This document shows positions 1 through 7,336 of a stretch of 23,387 bases of DNA, in pieces. The stretch comes from a virus: positions 42,084 through 65,470 of the IMG/VR virus record IMGVR_UViG_3300008116_000303; one strand, 5' to 3'. The position numbers and the translations under genes were made by a program. Positions within the stretch are counted from its first letter, which is position 1. Every line of letters begins with the position of its first letter. The notes below the pieces were generated by a model that was given only the letters and a program-made list of their open reading frames with translations, had not been told where the DNA came from and ran no database searches.

Positions 1-323
1 GCCGAACTTACGGCAGCAGATACAGCAGTGGCTGTAACTTGAGTAGTAGTCTGAGCAGTTTGAGCCTGAGAACAAGGAGATAATTTACGATATTCTTCAT
101 AAACTTGATTAAGCCATTGATTAAATACGCCATTGCGTACATCAGCGGCAGTAAAAGTACGAGACTTATTGTAGAAAATAATAGTAGTACTACCTGTAAT
201 AGGAATAACAAAAGTTGAAGTAACTTTTGTACACGGGTCCGTGAATGTTTGGACGATAGTTTGAGAAAAAGCATATATTGGTACTATTAGTACTAATATT
301 GACACAATAATAAACTGTTTCAT
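1..323 (-). CDS. Secreted Thr/Gln-rich protein, 3' end outside window
   Basis: The reverse strand is open from an ATG at 323 to the window edge, giving 107 visible residues without a stop. The N-terminus is a signal peptide: a Lys, about 16 hydrophobic residues, then a likely cleavage site at AFS-Q (residues 18-21), the usual Bacteroidetes pattern. The mature part has two cysteines (about residues 31 and 83), a beta-rich stretch and then a low-complexity Thr/Gln/Ala/Ser tail. Its ATG shares one base with the TAA of the upstream CsgG-like gene (TAATG), so the two are probably translationally coupled. I do not recognise the family. The product is likely exported to the periplasm or cell surface. 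Coding status is supported by the signal peptide and the coupled start; the plus-strand ORF over it is a shadow. Confidence 0.72.
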   Translation of the reverse strand, partial: MKQFIIVSILVLIVPIYAFSQTIVQTFTDPCTKVTSTFVIPITGSTTIIFYNKSRTFTAADVRNGVFNQWLNQVYEEYRKLSPCSQAQTAQTTTQVTATAVSAAVSS

Positions 324-1057
324 TACTTTACAAAGATTCCTTTCTTGATCATACGGTCTAGAATTCTAGCACACGCTATATCAAGAGCTTTCTTTGTAGC
401 AATAGAAATAGTAGATTGATTAAACTTAACGGGGTCCATAGCAGCATCAGATGTTATCCCAGCCACTTCTTTAGTAGTTTTTGCATCCCCAAGTCCAGAA
501 CCACTAAATACAACACCAGTTTCAGCATCAGTGAATCTAACCTGTAAACCAATGCGTGTGACCATAAGCTGCTTTGTACCATCCTTAAGAGAAATAGTTT
601 CATCTTCTGATATAGAGTAATCATAACATTCTATAGTAACAAAGTACTTAGCTAAATTAATTTTGCCTCTACCATCTAGTTTGTTCTCTGAAATGCCAGC
701 CTGGCTAGCCTGAAACTGCTTAACCATACGGTTCTTGATTTCAGTCTTATCTTCAGTAAACTTGAACCTATTAAGGTTCTCTAAATACTCCATTGAAATA
801 TTAGCCACACCAAGACCTACACGTTTCTCTTTAAGTTCAGGATACATCTCATACATTTCATCTGAGATACCACACTTAAGAATTTGTATAGGAATCTGTG
901 GACCATCATAGTCCAAGAAATCTGATATATCTATGGCTTTTTCAAAGCTAGCCTTATACTGTTCAGTAGAAGTCTTAGCAATTTGAGAAAAGCCTACATT
1001 AACAAGCAAGAACATCGTTATAAAAAATAACAAGACGTATACAAATGTCTTTTTCAT
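323..1057 (-). CDS. CsgG-like secreted protein (curli export pore family)
   Basis: This 244-residue protein starts with a clear signal peptide (residues 1-25, cleavage GFS-Q) and no lipobox cysteine. The mature part has the order of elements I associate with the CsgG/HfaB family: an early strand 'RVGLGVANIS' (79-88), a helix, a strand 'AKYFVTIECYDY' (136-147) matching the family's 'ADYIVTG' strand, a long strand ending 'LQVRFTDAETGVV' (171-183) matching 'RLVDVxTGEV', a GxG turn, and a final helix 'ATKKALDIACARIL' (220-233). In bacteria CsgG is an outer-membrane lipoprotein forming the pore for curli subunits. Here the membrane anchor is missing, so the protein may be periplasmic or the barrel may be built differently. 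It ends in TAATG coupling to the secreted protein downstream. The family call is from motif memory, not a search. Confidence 0.6.
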   Translation of the reverse strand: MKKTFVYVLLFFITMFLLVNVGFSQIAKTSTEQYKASFEKAIDISDFLDYDGPQIPIQILKCGISDEMYEMYPELKEKRVGLGVANISMEYLENLNRFKFTEDKTEIKNRMVKQFQASQAGISENKLDGRGKINLAKYFVTIECYDYSISEDETISLKDGTKQLMVTRIGLQVRFTDAETGVVFSGSGLGDAKTTKEVAGITSDAAMDPVKFNQSTISIATKKALDIACARILDRMIKKGIFVK

Positions 1058-1058
1058 A

Positions 1059-1277
1059 CTACTGTAGTTTATTAGAATATTTGGACAATGCCCAATATAA
1101 AAGCCAGAAGACCCCTGATGTACAGTAAAATATCATATCTGTAATCCAAAAGCTCCCCGTAACATCTAAGAGTGTTTTGAATAGCATGTCGTAGCCTAAC
1201 GGCAGGAAGAACATGGCTGCCATCAAACTTGCATCCCGAAAGGAACGTACCGTCTTTAGTCTTCTTCTTTTGTTCAT
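1059..1277 (-). CDS. Small two-TM membrane protein
   Basis: The product has 72 residues from the ATG at 1277; a TTG one codon upstream (1280) is a possible alternative start. After a strongly basic N-terminus (NKRRRLK) there are two hydrophobic segments, roughly residues 18-36 and 42-64, giving a probable N-in/C-in hairpin in the inner membrane. The stop TAG lies one base before the ATG of the CsgG-like gene, which supports translation in this frame. A second open frame (1072-1287, ATG at 1287) overlaps nearly the whole gene, but its product is less membrane-like and leaves a larger gap to the next gene. Function unknown; two-TM topology, basic tail and lysis-gene neighbours make a holin or antiholin role possible. 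Confidence 0.55.
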   Translation of the reverse strand: MNKRRRLKTVRSFRDASLMAAMFFLPLGYDMLFKTLLDVTGSFWITDMIFYCTSGVFWLLYWALSKYSNKLQ

Positions 1278-1310
1278 CAATATCCATGTTATTGGATTAA
1301 GTGAATAATA

Positions 1311-1928
1311 TTATTCAGGGTCTTTGATCTTACCACATTTAAGGCATTCAAGATCACCGTCCCCATCAGCGTCACCCCAAACGTGCTCACACTGTCTGTG
1401 TGCAAAGTACTCGTCTATCTTTCCGTCACCGTCAAAGTCTAGACCGTCCATGATACCGTCACCGTCTTCATCTATCTCTGTACCTTTTTTAGAAATTGTT
1501 GCTGTATCAGATTTAGAATCTTCTGCTGTGCGGTGATTATCATCTTTATTCTCCGCAGCTTTTGCAGCAAATGCAGCAAAGGTTGGGTCAACTAATGAAG
1601 TCTGAGGTTTATTAGACTCTTTCATATCATTAGTATGACTTAGAGTAACACCATCTTCTTCATCCATCTTCTGTACAAGCATTTTATCTTTGTCAGTATC
1701 AGAGAACCAGTAGTCTATAATCTTACCATAAGAACCAATAAAGGCACCTAGTAAAAGAAGTAGTAGTTCTTTCCACTCTCCTTGAATCTGAGTACCGTAA
1801 TTAATAGCAACGAATATTCCACCAATAATAAGCATAAATGATCCAAGAACTAACGCTGTAATAAACCAGCGTCTTAGCATCATTGCATTCAATAAGGCCT
1901 GAAAGCCTGAAGGTTGTTTATTTTCCAT
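1311..1928 (-). CDS. Holin-like two-TM protein with DxDxDG loops and Cys/His cluster
   Basis: The 205-residue product has TM segments at about 22-43 and 53-70, followed by 'IIDYWFSDTDKDK' (70-82), which recalls the 'YWFGSS..K' signature after the last TM of '3-TM holin' proteins. A polar Ala/Lys/Asp linker (85-150) leads to an acidic tail with three DxDxDG calcium-loop-like repeats: DEDGDG at 153-158, DFDGDG at 164-169 and DADGDG at 186-191. C180, H182, C195 and C198 surround the last loop and could bind zinc. The calcium loops resemble thrombospondin type 3 or dockerin/EF-hand loops. By the positive-inside rule (RR before TM1) the tail should be cytoplasmic. The start overlaps the preceding 36-codon gene by 11 bp. 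The membrane and metal-loop features are seen directly; the holin relation is inference. Confidence 0.7.
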   Translation of the reverse strand: MENKQPSGFQALLNAMMLRRWFITALVLGSFMLIIGGIFVAINYGTQIQGEWKELLLLLLGAFIGSYGKIIDYWFSDTDKDKMLVQKMDEEDGVTLSHTNDMKESNKPQTSLVDPTFAAFAAKAAENKDDNHRTAEDSKSDTATISKKGTEIDEDGDGIMDGLDFDGDGKIDEYFAHRQCEHVWGDADGDGDLECLKCGKIKDPE

Positions 1929-2028
1929 ACTTGTTCAATATTTGTAGGTTTTGTTTTATTAGCTTAGCTTTTTTAAGACCAGAACGTCTACTACGCCTAG
2001 CTTTAGGTTTAGGTTGTGCGTTTGCCAT
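1918..2028 (-). CDS. 36-residue Arg/Lys-rich peptide
   Basis: This short reverse-strand frame runs from ATG at 2028 to TAA at 1918-1920. It encodes a very basic peptide starting MANAQPKPKARRSRRSG, followed by a basic amphipathic stretch (LKKAKLIKQNLQIL). It starts three bases after the stop of the gene before it and overlaps the next start by 11 bp, so it fits the compact operon exactly. No other gene explains the 103-bp gap. The composition suggests nucleic-acid or membrane binding; I do not recognise a family. Confidence 0.6.
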   Translation of the reverse strand: MANAQPKPKARRSRRSGLKKAKLIKQNLQILNKYGK

Positions 2029-2031
2029 AGT

Positions 2032-2340
2032 TTACCACTTTGGTGCTTCTTCTTTAAACTCATCACCTTCTTTCTTCTTAGGCTTAGGTGCTGGAGCAGC
2101 TGGTTTTTCAACCACTCTTTCAATCACTTTAGTGCCACCACCAGACTGAGCTTGCTGATTAGAGTTAGTAATATTAATAACAGGTGCTGGAGCTGCAACA
2201 GGAGCTGCTTCTTTATCACCACCACCAAGTAATGTAGATACCCAAACGCCACCGGCTGTTACTACAGTACCTAATACACCTACAATAGTCTTCTTAAGAC
2301 TAGACCAAGTGCCTTCATTTTGTACATTTTCTTCTGACAT
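2032..2340 (-). CDS. Single-TM protein with Pro/Ala/Lys-rich tail
   Basis: The 102-residue product has a short polar N-terminus (MSEENVQNEGTW), one Gly/Val-rich TM segment (about 18-39), then a Pro/Ala-rich and Gln/Asn-rich linker and a charged tail 'KPKKKEGDEFKEEAPKW'. This is a membrane-anchored extended protein, a layout shared with inner-membrane spanins and other phage envelope proteins, but no family is recognised. Two overlapping plus-strand frames in this region are shadows. It sits between a lipoprotein gene (8 bp upstream) and the 36-codon basic gene. Confidence 0.65.
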   Translation of the reverse strand: MSEENVQNEGTWSSLKKTIVGVLGTVVTAGGVWVSTLLGGGDKEAAPVAAPAPVINITNSNQQAQSGGGTKVIERVVEKPAAPAPKPKKKEGDEFKEEAPKW

Positions 2341-2347
2341 AGTGTTT

Positions 2348-2734
2348 TTATTTAATTGTTATTGGATACTTAACCTCATTACCGTCAACATCTATAAAAA
2401 TAAGATCATAATCTCTCTTAGACAGTGTCTTAAGATTATACGTCTTACTAGTAATGCTATCGGATGCAGTAAAACCATCTTTTACAGAAGGTTCATCTGA
2501 TCCAAACGGTAATACCTGCACAGAGTATTTAGCTCCAGCAGTAGTTTGAAACTTTACTGATACTACATTGTCTACTACTGAAATAGTTTTTATAGCAGTA
2601 GATGTAGATTTTTTACCAAGATCTACTACAGGAATTGGTTGTATTTCAATCTTTGTACAACCATTCAAGAAATAGATAATACCGACAAGCAGTATCATAA
2701 GGGCAAGCAATAATCCAAAGTCTTTGTTTTTCAT
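2348..2734 (-). CDS. Putative lipoprotein with beta-rich domain
   Basis: The 128-residue product starts with a lysine-containing N-region, a hydrophobic core (residues 7-22) and a lipobox-like 'FLNGC' with cysteine at 26, so it is probably exported and lipidated. The match to the strict lipobox is imperfect (Asn at -2). Residues 45-128 alternate in a way expected of beta strands, such as 'VVSVKFQTTAGAKYSVQVL' and 'YDLIFIDVDGNEVKYPITIK', and may form one fibronectin-III- or Ig-like domain. It ends 8 bp before the single-TM gene and begins 4 bp after the cohesin-like gene. It could be an outer-membrane spanin or a surface partner of the cohesin protein; neither is proven. Confidence 0.68.
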   Translation of the reverse strand: MKNKDFGLLLALMILLVGIIYFLNGCTKIEIQPIPVVDLGKKSTSTAIKTISVVDNVVSVKFQTTAGAKYSVQVLPFGSDEPSVKDGFTASDSITSKTYNLKTLSKRDYDLIFIDVDGNEVKYPITIK

Positions 2735-2738
2735 AGTT

Positions 2739-4871
2739 TTAGAAGTTGTTATAACCGGTTAATTTAATTTTGTCTGAGTTCAGCTTGATACCTAATTGCA
2801 CACCTTTGTTATTACTAGCATCCATAGTAGGAGAAACTCTTATTACTGTAAGAATATCAAGTCCATTTACAAGGCTAGAAAACTTAAGCTTAAAAGGAAC
2901 TAAAGAAGTACCGTTTATAGCTTCAGTGTTGTTTTTATCAAGAGAACCAAACTTTACTCTTCCTGTTGTGGTATTCACAAAAGTGTACCAAGTATTAGGT
3001 AGGGTTAAGGCAACCTCTTCAAACTTTAACTTTGTTGGGTCATACTTAAATTCAAACTGAAGACCACTTACAGGATTTCCGTTTGTATTTATACCCACTG
3101 GTATTTCTATATTATTAGAAGTTACCGTTATATTAGATAGATTTACATCTATTGATCCAGATTCTGTACTTGCCTGTGCTGTACTCATTGTAGTATTAGC
3201 CATGCTTACAAATGCCTCATTCTTAAATAGACTATTAGCAGCATTTGTCTGTACAGTAGTAGTTGTACCATCAAAAGTAACAACCTGAGAAGAATGTGAT
3301 CTATTCACATCTCCCCATAAAATATACTTAAGATTCAGCTGAGCATTTGTACCAAGAGCACCTGTTCTAAAATAAGATTTTGGTGCAGTAATAGTATTCC
3401 AGTTAGCTGGAGTAATAGCGCCCCAAACATTATTAGGACTATTATTAAATTCATACTCACACTTAAGAGCATATTCACCTGATTGTGCAGTAGCTCTTAT
3501 ATACTGACTGTAGATTGATGTTTCAACATTGGAAAATGAAGAAGGAACTTTATATACAGCCCAGGTATTATCTGATAAACCAGCATCATACTGTACAGGA
3601 CCAGCATATAAATCAAAAACTTGTACAGATTTAATCTGATCTGCAGTAGGACCTCCTTGTACAAATTCACGTTTATCTATATGTAGTCTACTTACACCAG
3701 AAGAATATCCATTTACAACAAAGTATGCAAACTCTACAGCTCCAGGAATACTAGTAGCTTGTGTTGCATGCCAGCTTGGTAAACTAATATACCCACCTGA
3801 TCCAATAGTATACCCTGATGGTAAATTAACCAAGGTATCTATACCGGCTACCTGTGCAAGAAGCATAGGTAAGTCACCACCATTGAAAGATCTATCTTTA
3901 TTTATATCGGCAGCGTAGCTTGACTGTCCAGTTTTGATTGTAGTATTAGACATACTTCCATCAAGATTAGCTGAAGTAAATTCAGCCTGAGCTGAAGTAA
4001 AGTCTGAAATAGTTATGGCTGAGTTCATAATAGAATAGAATGTATCCATTCTTGCCATTACACTTACATCATATACTTTATTAGCTGCTAACAAGGACTG
4101 ATTAATATTTACAGTACCATCTGAGTTAACATCAAATAACACGCCTGTATTAGTAACAGTATCTCTGAAAGATACTTTTAAAGGAGATATAGTATGCAGA
4201 TTAGAGTTAAGATCAACCTTTGCAGATACATACTTACCAAAGTTTTGGTTCATCTGAACTGTAGAACTAAGAGGAGACTCTTGAATAGTATTATTATAAG
4301 CACCATTTACATCCCAACCTGCTACAAAGTTTAGCTTTATAGGATTGAATGTATAAGCTGTGGAAGCATCTCTTAACTTAAATCTAAGTACAATTAATCT
4401 ATCATAGCTACTATACGGCATTGCATTATTAGTAGCCCAGTTAAGGTTAACTCTTAAAATAGCATTAGGGCCACCTTGTGTATAAGAGTAAGCAGAATTT
4501 TGATAGTTACTAGTACCGTTTGATGTAGTATTTAACTGACTAGAGTTAAAACTATAACCAGGATAAACATAATGAGATATACTAATAGTTGATTGTTGTG
4601 GTAGTACACCACCGTTTCCGCCAGTACCTGTATGGTTAGCAGAAATTAATTCAAAGTTAGCATTGTCAAACTGTAGATCAAAGAGCAACTGTCTTGTTGT
4701 GTTATTACCGTTACCATTTGCGTCTATCCAAAGTTCAAACTGGTCACCACGGTTAATAACAGTACCTCCAATATTAGATGTTATGCTAGATTGTCTAAGT
4801 TTAAATTTAATCTGTGCATAACTAAACATTGTTATAAAAGATAACAAAGCAAGCAAAAATAGTTTTTTCAT
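2739..4871 (-). CDS. Secreted cohesin/dockerin-like protein, 710 residues
   Basis: A signal peptide (1-20, cleavage SYA-Q) is followed by a beta-rich cohesin-like region (about 21-215), with strand patterns such as 'QLLFDLQFDNANFELIS'. Next come dockerin-type calcium loops: 'FDVNSDGTVN' (246-255) and a fuller 'ADINKDRSFNGGDLPMLLAQ' (321-340), which has the Dx(N)xD..DLxxLL form of a dockerin repeat. A beta-rich middle (360-510) leads to a third, degenerate loop 'ILWGDVNRSHSS' (517-528). The C-terminal 130 residues resemble a cohesin domain: 'SGLQFEFKYDPTKLKFEEV' (602-620), then 'GRVKFGSLD' and 'LVPFKLKFSS'. Cohesins bind dockerins in cellulosomes and in other bacterial surface complexes. In this phage it may be a host-secreted surface or matrix protein, or a virion fibre component. 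The signal peptide favours export. It follows the 4873-5520 gene by one base. Confidence 0.72.
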   Translation of the reverse strand: MKKLFLLALLSFITMFSYAQIKFKLRQSSITSNIGGTVINRGDQFELWIDANGNGNNTTRQLLFDLQFDNANFELISANHTGTGGNGGVLPQQSTISISHYVYPGYSFNSSQLNTTSNGTSNYQNSAYSYTQGGPNAILRVNLNWATNNAMPYSSYDRLIVLRFKLRDASTAYTFNPIKLNFVAGWDVNGAYNNTIQESPLSSTVQMNQNFGKYVSAKVDLNSNLHTISPLKVSFRDTVTNTGVLFDVNSDGTVNINQSLLAANKVYDVSVMARMDTFYSIMNSAITISDFTSAQAEFTSANLDGSMSNTTIKTGQSSYAADINKDRSFNGGDLPMLLAQVAGIDTLVNLPSGYTIGSGGYISLPSWHATQATSIPGAVEFAYFVVNGYSSGVSRLHIDKREFVQGGPTADQIKSVQVFDLYAGPVQYDAGLSDNTWAVYKVPSSFSNVETSIYSQYIRATAQSGEYALKCEYEFNNSPNNVWGAITPANWNTITAPKSYFRTGALGTNAQLNLKYILWGDVNRSHSSQVVTFDGTTTTVQTNAANSLFKNEAFVSMANTTMSTAQASTESGSIDVNLSNITVTSNNIEIPVGINTNGNPVSGLQFEFKYDPTKLKFEEVALTLPNTWYTFVNTTTGRVKFGSLDKNNTEAINGTSLVPFKLKFSSLVNGLDILTVIRVSPTMDASNNKGVQLGIKLNSDKIKLTGYNNF

Positions 4872-4872
4872 T

Positions 4873-5520
4873 TTAGTCTAGAAGTTTATTTACTAATGAA
4901 ACAGATGTTTTCTTCAAAGCAGAACTAAGATTCTGTTGGTTGAATTTACCTCCTTGATCTATGACAATCGTAGACATAGATACTTCATCAGCTGACTCTT
5001 CAACGATAGCTTTCTTTTTAACCTTTCCGTTTTCAATAAGCTGTCCTTTGAGTCTAATAACGACTGACTCTTTATTTTTATGAAGAACAGACAAACTTGT
5101 CTGTGTCTTAAGTACATCTAAATAAACAATCTCTGCAGTAATTTTAAGAGATGCATTAGGATCTAACTCATACTCTTTATCCTGTAGAGCTTCTTCGATA
5201 ACACTTTTAACACCAAACTCAAGATTACGGTTGCCTGCCAAAGAGCCTACAACTACTTTGTTTGTAACAGAAGATACATCTATCTTCTTAGGTTCTTCAT
5301 AAAAGATGTTTCTTGGGTCATGTGCCCATCGTCCATCAAATGTTACATCAAACCAGGTAATAATTTGTTTTATGGTTTCATCTCTACCTGAAAACTCCAA
5401 GTAAACCATATATACTTGGAAGCATAAGGCTAGTGTTACCCATGTTAATGCACAGATAAGAAAAAACCATACAATCTTTTCTTTTACCCAGCCGTAAAAG
5501 TTTACAATGTGTGCTCTCAT
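4873..5520 (-). CDS. Membrane-anchored protein with CsgG/LptE-like alpha/beta domain
   Basis: This 215-residue protein has one long hydrophobic segment (about 17-40) after a short N-terminus, then a polar segment and a periplasmic-looking domain from about residue 85. That domain has the order strand (NKVVVGSL), helix (VKSVIEEALQ), strand (LKITAEIVYLDV), strand (SVVIRLKGQLIENGKVKKK) and a final helix (LSSALKKTSVSLVNKLL). This beta-alpha-beta-beta-alpha plan is shared by CsgG-type and LptE-type proteins and may be related to the CsgG-like protein at 323-1057, but sequence similarity is weak by eye. It is probably an inner-membrane protein with an exported C-terminal domain. Its TAA lies one base before the ATG of the secreted cohesin-like gene, so the pair may be co-translated. 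Confidence 0.62.
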   Translation of the reverse strand: MRAHIVNFYGWVKEKIVWFFLICALTWVTLALCFQVYMVYLEFSGRDETIKQIITWFDVTFDGRWAHDPRNIFYEEPKKIDVSSVTNKVVVGSLAGNRNLEFGVKSVIEEALQDKEYELDPNASLKITAEIVYLDVLKTQTSLSVLHKNKESVVIRLKGQLIENGKVKKKAIVEESADEVSMSTIVIDQGGKFNQQNLSSALKKTSVSLVNKLLD

Positions 5521-5556: not shown

Positions 5557-5688
5557 TTATCTACCTTGCCCTCTATACTTTGAAACTTGTTTATCCTTAG
5601 GACCGCTGGTTTTCTTTGCGGAGCCTCCCTTTCTTTTACCAAATGATATTTTACGGGACTCTCCTCCTTTTGCTTTACCTTTTGCCAT
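5557..5688 (-). CDS. 43-residue Lys/Gly/Ser-rich peptide
   Basis: This reverse-strand frame runs from ATG at 5688 to TAA at 5557-5559. The product begins MAKGKAKGGESRK and is rich in Lys, Gly, Ser and Arg, with no hydrophobic core. Its ATG shares one base with the TAA of the endolysin gene (TAATG), the same coupling seen elsewhere in this operon, and this is the main evidence that it is translated. The composition is like small DNA-binding or structural phage peptides. It is not related by eye to the other basic peptides, beyond charge. Confidence 0.58.
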   Translation of the reverse strand: MAKGKAKGGESRKISFGKRKGGSAKKTSGPKDKQVSKYRGQGR

Positions 5689-6287
5689 TACACTAGAAGA
5701 TTATGATATTCTTTAAAATGTTTAATACGATCTGCTAGGCCAATAGTACCGCCATTTACACGTTTTGTAATTTTAGTTACTACTTCAGTAGAACTTCCAG
5801 TGTCAGCAATAGTGTTTAGACCGTTCTTATTCCAGAACCATGCTGCAGATGCCAAAGGATACTTAGTAGCTACTAAGTCCGGGTTATCTACAATACTTTC
5901 TGGCACAGAAGCATCAAAGGCAGTATAATTCTGCTTACCGGTCAATTGGATAAATCCACGACCTCTAAACTTGAATCCCTCACCACTAGCTTCTGGTCCA
6001 TTACCCATACGAGAAGCATATACTTTATTAGCAATCTTCTGTGGTTGTCTAGCATAAGCATTAGCTAAAGCTTCTGTAGGAAAATACTTCTTGAAGATTC
6101 CCATCAGACCTTTAGCTGAATAGTTAAGATTTTCTTGAGTAAGCTTAAAACCACCAGACTCATGTCCACACTGAGCTAGAAAATGAGCTACACGCAAAGG
6201 AGTGTTAACATTAAACTTCTCCATTACACCTGGAATCTGTGCAATAACTGAATCTGGTACGTGGCCTTTTAGTTTCTCTAGGTTCAT
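5688..6287 (-). CDS. GH19 family endolysin (chitinase-like lysozyme)
   Basis: The 199-residue product is a full single-domain glycoside hydrolase family 19 protein. Recognisable signatures are 'AQCGHESGGF' (38-47) with the likely catalytic Glu43, 'QENLNYSAKGL' (51-61), and 'RGRGFIQLTGKQNY' (108-121), a hallmark of phage GH19 endolysins. 'AAWFWNKNGLN' lies near residues 150-160. Phage members cut the glycan strands of peptidoglycan at the end of infection. There is no signal peptide, so it would need the holin-like protein at 7088-7336 or a similar pore. It overlaps the preceding small gene by 4 bp (ATGA) and the next basic peptide gene by one base (TAATG). Confidence 0.93.
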   Translation of the reverse strand: MNLEKLKGHVPDSVIAQIPGVMEKFNVNTPLRVAHFLAQCGHESGGFKLTQENLNYSAKGLMGIFKKYFPTEALANAYARQPQKIANKVYASRMGNGPEASGEGFKFRGRGFIQLTGKQNYTAFDASVPESIVDNPDLVATKYPLASAAWFWNKNGLNTIADTGSSTEVVTKITKRVNGGTIGLADRIKHFKEYHNLLV

Positions 6288-6456: not shown

Positions 6457-7098
6457 TTATTTATCCTTCTTACCGATTTTCCAGTAGGACTGGAAACCAT
6501 ATGTAACATTGCCGTTAATATCAGTTCCGGCTTTCAAGCCATAGATCTGATCTCTTTTGGTTTTAAGAATCAAGCCAGCTTCTGCTGCTTGAGGCATGAG
6601 GGTTTTTGATGTATTGATACCAGCACCAATATAAAGCTGGTTTCTTTTAGGAGCTTGCTTAGTAATAGTCACTGTCTCTTTTACAATAGGAATGACATAG
6701 TCTGCATTAATTGATCTTCCTGCTAGTCTATTAAACTGTACTGTATCTTTTATATAAAATCCACCCTTAAGCTGAGGTACTTTAATTGTATCAAAGAAGA
6801 TAGCTTTTGCTGCATGTTCTCTAACTAAAGCTTCAAACTGAAGTTTTAATGCTGCATAGTTAGTATCAGCAATCATCTGAGGAGGTAGTGTAAGAGTATC
6901 TATATCATAGATAATCTCTTTTACTGGTACCTTCTTTACAATAGTAGTATCATGTTGCTCCCATAGAGTATCAATTACTCTTACTGTATCTGCCTTGGGT
7001 TTATCAAAAAATCCCAGACCGTTATTACATCCCATGCGGGAAATTACCAGAACACCAATTACTACTAAAACAATAATCGCATATTTACTAAGCTTCAT
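6457..7098 (-). CDS. Membrane-anchored periplasmic protein, possible spanin
   Basis: The 213-residue product has an N-terminal TM segment (about 6-22), then an extended region rich in Asp/Thr/Val (33-75), a short helix (82-100) and a C-terminal beta-rich part (154-208) with hairpin-like strands 'QLYIGAGINTS' and 'GNVTYGFQSYWKIG'. A cysteine at 24 follows the TM but the context (SRMGC) is a poor lipobox. N-terminal anchoring, an extended periplasmic stretch and placement between holin and endolysin fit an i-spanin or u-spanin that would fuse inner and outer membranes; this is inference from layout. It overlaps the holin-like gene by 11 bp. Confidence 0.68.
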   Translation of the reverse strand: MKLSKYAIIVLVVIGVLVISRMGCNNGLGFFDKPKADTVRVIDTLWEQHDTTIVKKVPVKEIIYDIDTLTLPPQMIADTNYAALKLQFEALVREHAAKAIFFDTIKVPQLKGGFYIKDTVQFNRLAGRSINADYVIPIVKETVTITKQAPKRNQLYIGAGINTSKTLMPQAAEAGLILKTKRDQIYGLKAGTDINGNVTYGFQSYWKIGKKDK

Positions 7099-7336
7099 CT
7101 TCTTTCTTTTTCTTGTGAGAGAATTTATCTACGCTGTCCGCACCAATACCTACACAGGTCATGATTAAAACAGCATCTACAAGAGCGTCAGAAGGTTTAA
7201 TATCACCATGAGTAAAGGAATTAGCAGTAAGCGTTATACATAAAAACAATGCTCCCATAAATCCAACTACTGGCTTAATAGAAGTAGATCCCCGTTCATC
7301 TTTGAACAAATCAGTTATCCATTGCTTAAAAGTCAT
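7088..7336 (-). CDS. Holin-like two-TM protein
   Basis: The 82-residue product has a charged N-terminus with 'KDERGSTSIKPVVGF' (12-26), two hydrophobic segments (about 21-39 and 51-66) joined by a short polar loop, and a Lys/Glu-rich tail (HKKKKEDEA). The 'ERGxxSxKxVVGF' start, two TMs and the 'DSVDKFS' before the tail are features I recognise from small holin-like proteins of Bacteroidetes phages. It would form the inner-membrane hole that releases the endolysin. It overlaps both neighbours by 11 bp, showing tight packing within the lysis set. Confidence 0.72.
   Translation of the reverse strand: MTFKQWITDLFKDERGSTSIKPVVGFMGALFLCITLTANSFTHGDIKPSDALVDAVLIMTCVGIGADSVDKFSHKKKKEDEA

Follow-up and report, generated by a model that had tools for sequence, protein, structure and literature searches.

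The stretch of DNA analysed here, referred to as the window, covers 23.4 kb (23,387 nucleotides) at the right-hand end of a 65.5-kb virus record. Its first 7.9 kb is filled by a run of minus-strand genes, which code in order for a holin-like protein, a possible spanin, a GH19-type endolysin and a 43-aa basic protein, followed by a block of envelope genes. The open reading frames of this block, their strand and their tight spacing, as laid out in the initial annotation, were borne out on re-examination, and so were the signal peptides on 323-1057, 2739-4871 and 1-323, which are of typical Sec form with a K-rich start, a hydrophobic core and an A/S-x-x-Q motif. Scans for Bacteroidota-type and sigma-70 promoters reached chance level only. 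Related loci fall into clade A, which includes the window, and a sister clade B, which resembles the locus of Flavobacterium phage immuto. Loci with full flanks (n = 85; 40 clade A, 45 clade B) are termed complete loci below, and signal-peptide counts derive from a crude rule (SPI or lipoprotein) that also flags 6% of background ORFs.

Conservation within the set is highest for the gene at 323-1057, which encodes a CsgG-superfamily protein that is likely secreted or periplasmic. An AlphaFold2 model built from a 47-member alignment (pLDDT 75) was compared with known structures using Foldseek, and the top solved structures are all E. coli CsgG (4uv2, probability 1.00, E 2e-7). Nearly all of the 38 matches below 1e-3 belong to the CsgG superfamily, with HpaA, FlgT, GNA1162, PelC and LptE following CsgG in that order. 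Among predicted viral proteins, the sole strong fold match is an annotated phage CsgG. TM-scores against CsgG are low (0.40-0.46), and we therefore assign the protein to the fold class without claiming close similarity. Like all structure models used in this work, this one represents a monomer at moderate confidence (pLDDT 75 and 66). The relation to CsgG is visible by fold comparison only, as single-sequence and profile searches of Pfam, PHROG and the PDB returned no significant match. The CsgG profile PF03783 matched neither the window protein nor 29 aligned members, with the CsgG of pelagiphage HTVC008M scoring 180 bits in the same library as positive control. Direct comparison of the family with E. 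coli CsgG alone by hhalign aligned only 25 columns at 2% probability, and we therefore do not claim homology to CsgG itself at the sequence level.

CsgG-family proteins are known as curli secretion pores. The strand order of the model fits CsgG, supporting the fold that had been suggested for 323-1057, but the features expected of a curli pore are absent. The monomer model contains a single hairpin (residues 138-177) with a charged tip (ISEDETISLKDGTK) rather than the two transmembrane beta-hairpins per subunit of CsgG, the second hairpin insert being reduced to 27 residues compared with about 45 in E. coli CsgG. The window protein carries an SPI-type signal with neither a lipobox nor an N-terminal lipidated Cys. 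Among its relatives, 33/160 are called as lipoproteins, and a signal of either type is found in 144/160, as against the 6% background. The missing membrane hairpins and lipid anchor make a CsgG-type pore unlikely for the window protein. Judged from the model, the CsgG-like protein as such is not a curli pore, and any role in secretion would need a barrel.

A second protein of the same kind is encoded at 4873-5520 and present in 84/85 complete loci. As previously proposed, it is membrane-anchored through one N-terminal TM segment. The only hint from Pfam is a weak, sub-threshold similarity to YajG (PF03923, E 0.0013). Comparison by hhalign of the mature regions, from which signal and TM segments had been removed beforehand, gave a 95.8% probability (P 7e-9) for a match between this family and the CsgG-like family, against at most 3.7% for any of 19 control families taken from these loci. 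The link passes via clade B members (89%); clade A members alone match weakly (13.8%). Both proteins end in a KFNQ...KKA helix. The earlier suspicion of a possibly related alpha/beta domain is thus supported, and on these sequence profiles 4873-5520 is a distant homologue, and paralogue, of the CsgG-like protein.

The ORF at 1-323 had been listed among the proteins with a signal peptide. This signal peptide stands, but the ORF is not a small secreted protein and turns out to be the start of a larger outer-membrane protein, comprising the signal peptide, a DPC domain and the beginning of an Ala/Ser linker. A run of 22 N bases just outside the window edge interrupts it, and the barrel part lies behind this gap at about 41141-42083 of the contig (G000); in relatives, the halves on either side of the gap both match one ORF. 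The AlphaFold2 model of one relative (L011) displays a signal peptide, a small N-terminal domain, a long helix, a disordered Ser/Ala-rich linker and 12 long strands. Foldseek places FapF first for this model (E 7e-8), followed by other 12-strand barrels, and the match is not discriminating, being common to all 12-strand barrels, porins included. FapF itself is an amyloid-secretion barrel of 12 strands, preceded by an N-terminal coiled coil and a linker (PMC5557850). Signal peptides were called in 104/159 barrel proteins, some of the ORFs being called from an internal Met. Pfam and PDB sequence searches with the barrel family gave no relevant match that would indicate homology to FapF, and no PorP/SprF profile appeared among the families shown for 38 members. 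The PDB matches and most Pfam matches of the barrel alignment were rejected as low-complexity artefacts of the linker.

The gene at 2739-4871 encodes a secreted protein with a C-terminal cohesin domain at residues 587-691, in agreement with the initial annotation (PF00963, 28.0 bits against a cut-off of 24.1). Together with the fold search, this match rules out that the block holds neither a CsgG fold nor a cohesin. A dockerin profile scores below threshold (PF00404, E 0.031), and a clear dockerin-like calcium loop is found at residues 322-333 (DINKDRSFNGGD). Calcium-loop motifs occur in 74/256 relatives, where shuffled sequences would give 0.15. A terminal cohesin combined with a central dockerin-like loop would allow head-to-tail assembly. 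The 73 non-redundant members of this cluster bear Cohesin (32), Lectin_C (23) and type IX tail (Por_Secre_tail, 18) domains, more rarely LamG (4), CHU_C (1) or SprB (1), and also PA14, and signal peptides were called in 240/253 members. These domains agree with the surface-directed cargo foreseen earlier. One to four such secreted cohesin/lectin proteins are present per locus. Type IX tails are found on cargo in 76/82 clade B loci; direct search detected none on clade A cargo, and the cohesin protein of the window likewise lacks a C-terminal type IX sorting domain.

Several smaller proteins complete the block. Most constant among them is a one-TM, Ala/Pro/Asn-rich spacer protein (2032-2340), which ends in a conserved DEFKEEAPKW tail. 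The two-TM protein at 1311-1928 occurs in 97/161 loci (60/85 complete ones); its C-terminus consists of acidic, Asp-rich calcium-type repeats with a CxxH...CxxC motif, and clade B versions are without this tail. A small two-TM inner-membrane protein (1059-1280) is confined to clade A (24/80 loci). The protein at 2348-2734, found in 27/40 complete clade A loci, was correctly called a lipoprotein (lipobox LNGC) and appears beta-sandwich-like. Its interpretation as a detached type IX sorting domain arose from an iterative search that had drifted, and with 5% in a direct hhalign comparison this stays unproven. Very small, highly basic proteins lie between the set genes, at 5557-5688 (43 aa) and about 1918-2028 (36 aa); the former is conserved between set and endolysin in 32 clade A loci.

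Further upstream, the endolysin (5688-6287; PF00182, phrog_181) is a neighbour of the set rather than a core member. The same applies to the membrane-anchored periplasmic protein at 6457-7098 (51 clade A loci, 0 clade B), which has no family match and for which a spanin role is a guess, and to the two-TM holin-like protein at 7088-7336 (89/161 loci), whose profile matches do not rise above chance. Two other secreted proteins recur beside the set. A DNA/RNA non-specific endonuclease with a signal peptide (PF01223) is present in 15/85 complete loci (L087:4205-4783, cluster 16) and might act as a periplasmic block to incoming phage DNA. A putative metallopeptidase with an HExxH-type HESKH motif is present in 29/45 complete clade B loci (L132:5144-5599, cluster 10).

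The co-occurrence analysis establishes the genes as a unit, in line with the linkage first proposed from gene order. The barrel and the cohesin-cluster protein are present in 85/85 complete loci, and the spacer protein in 78/85; these genes and the paralogue, where found near the CsgG-like gene, always share its strand. Matches to the window CsgG-like protein were detected on 473 viral contigs and to the immuto version on 113. Within clade A, CsgG-like proteins are 79-94% identical to that of the window, and the median identity is 84% for the CsgG-like protein as against 56% for the cargo. In four genomes (L004, L009, L013, L065), the CsgG-like protein shares 83-91% identity with that of the window, the terminase 30-32% and the major capsid protein 24-28%; in several others with 80-83% CsgG-like identity, terminase and capsid show no detectable match, although these records may be incomplete. 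The set thus seems to be exchanged between phage groups, with the CsgG-like gene spreading irrespective of capsid and terminase. Fourfold sites of clade A CsgG-like genes differ by 40-63%, which rules out recent transfer as the sole cause of this conservation and indicates strong purifying selection in addition to sharing across phage groups.

A search of 84,980 genomes for a cellular origin of the CsgG-like protein yielded a single match, and of 395 Bacteroidota genomes none but this one matched, apart from a marginal 39-aa fragment. The matching locus (L086) lies on a 254-kb contig of a Bacteroidetes MAG, which by eye carries tail-collar-like genes and two barrel paralogues; it probably represents a large phage assigned to the bin of its host. 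Among cultured phages, the set was found only in Flavobacterium phage immuto, whose gp017 is 50% identical to the CsgG-like protein. Hosts of the set-bearing viruses appear to be Bacteroidota, an assignment based on immuto's Flavobacterium host, the style of the signal peptides and the type IX tails, rather than on per-contig host prediction.

What this unit does we infer as follows. At a probability of about 0.5, the set would be a phage-encoded, envelope-spanning assembly that displays adhesive proteins with cohesin or C-type lectin domains at the surface of infected Bacteroidota. The exported CsgG-like protein could sit as a ring or plug against the periplasmic side of the barrel, by analogy to PelC with PelB and LptE with LptD. 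The barrel could then, like FapF, provide a conduit or anchor in the outer membrane and be tethered across the periplasm by the inner-membrane spacer-type proteins. In the immuto-like clade, the cargo would also use host type IX secretion. A lectin/cohesin coat would most likely mask or cross-link surface glycans, leading either to superinfection exclusion or to infected cells and progeny being held near new hosts. The near-invariance of the CsgG-like protein next to variable cargo is as expected of a machine and its surface cargo. Two observations speak against this reading: type IX-tailed clade B cargo needs no phage export channel, yet the CsgG-like protein and the barrel are kept, and the cohesin protein of the window itself has no such tail. 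More tentatively, the set might constitute a horizontally shared phage secretion apparatus, in which the CsgG-fold pair and a FapF-like barrel assemble a calcium-dependent cohesin/dockerin/lectin coat or fibre.

The setting in the window could also be explained by an aid to lysis, with the CsgG-like pair and the barrel assembling late and weakening or opening the outer membrane beside the endolysin, holin and spanin-like proteins. The window, like many clade A loci, has these three genes immediately upstream of the set and on its strand, and a lysis-timing role has been proposed for the CsgGF of phage Melnitz (PMC9004378). We nevertheless consider this explanation rather unlikely. The lysis operon described in the initial annotation is present in the window but not general: across the complete loci, linkage to endolysin or holin is not constant, and an endolysin within 8 kb occurs in just 57/85, sometimes on the other strand only. 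In immuto, the set is located among replication and nucleotide genes. Moreover, a lysis aid gives no reason for every locus to carry cohesin, lectin and type IX-tailed cargo.

Somewhat less probable still is a blockade of receptors alone, in which the barrel and the surface proteins act independently in superinfection exclusion, chaperoned by the CsgG-like pair, with no transport machine. Phage-borne exclusion proteins commonly pass between unrelated phages, and the apparent exchange of the set would fit this behavior, as would its secreted, glycan-binding cargo and the secreted nucleases near it in some loci. However, a near-invariant CsgG-like protein and an unvarying complement of genes suggest an assembly of several parts. 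Lectin domains occur on phage tails too, and the CsgG-like protein has a very weak PHROG tail-assembly match (E 0.023), which would point to virion parts built into tail fibres or baseplate. This origin we regard as improbable, as it fits poorly with conserved Sec signals, lipoboxes, type IX tails and an outer-membrane barrel, and with sharing of the set independently of capsid and terminase genes.

Surface display by an envelope-spanning assembly thus stays the preferred reading, and with such a set the virus can probably rebuild the outside of the infected cell. Phage CsgG genes have been puzzling since they were seen in pelagiphages. The present set contains a distant member of the CsgG superfamily that hardly varies among hundreds of apparently Bacteroidota-infecting phages, some with unrelated capsid genes, and that is always accompanied by secreted adhesive cargo. 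If surface display is correct, remodelling the exterior of infected cells would join the common acts of lytic phages of aquatic Bacteroidota, and the set connects infection by phages with the type IX secretion of their hosts.

We found no description of the combined envelope set in the open-licence literature; it is uncharacterised as a whole, while phage CsgG and phage type IX cargo are singly known. With curli (type VIII) secretion it shares the CsgG-superfamily fold. It differs from CsgG in having no PF03783 match, no transmembrane hairpins and, in clade A, no lipid anchor, and in bringing a paralogue and a separate barrel; Pfam matches to CsgE, CsgF or curlin partners are absent from the proteins neighbouring the CsgG-like gene. 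CsgG/CsgGF precedents in phages come from pelagimyophages (PMC7029224) and Melnitz (PMC9004378), likewise aquatic phages with adjoining secreted adhesive proteins. In HTVC008M, CsgF and CsgG are followed by a secreted PA14 and curlin-repeat protein, in parallel to the set. That protein, gp018 (L170:7585-8910), contains PA14 and Curlin_rpt (PF07012, above cut-off), and gp016 (L170:5818-6504) is curlin-like by eye, where the published account has phage curli subunits missing.

PelC-PelB and LptE-LptD resemble the set in combining a CsgG-superfamily protein without a membrane barrel of its own with an adjoining, separate outer-membrane barrel. The set shows no sequence relation to them and has no polysaccharide or LPS machinery, and its partnership is deduced from gene order. 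FapF shares the N-terminal helical domain, long flexible linker and 12-strand barrel (PMC5557850), but has no sequence relation to the barrel protein, and no FapB/FapC amyloid subunits are seen in the set. Cryophage genes also bear host type IX sorting domains (PMC7468147); there, the cargo genes are isolated and variable, whereas here they belong to a conserved multi-gene envelope set. The closest counterpart is immuto, which carries the set as gp013-gp018. Its annotation names no system, with gp017 and gp018 listed as hypothetical and the lectin/cohesin genes named singly. As immuto is cultured on Flavobacterium, the function of the set is directly testable there.
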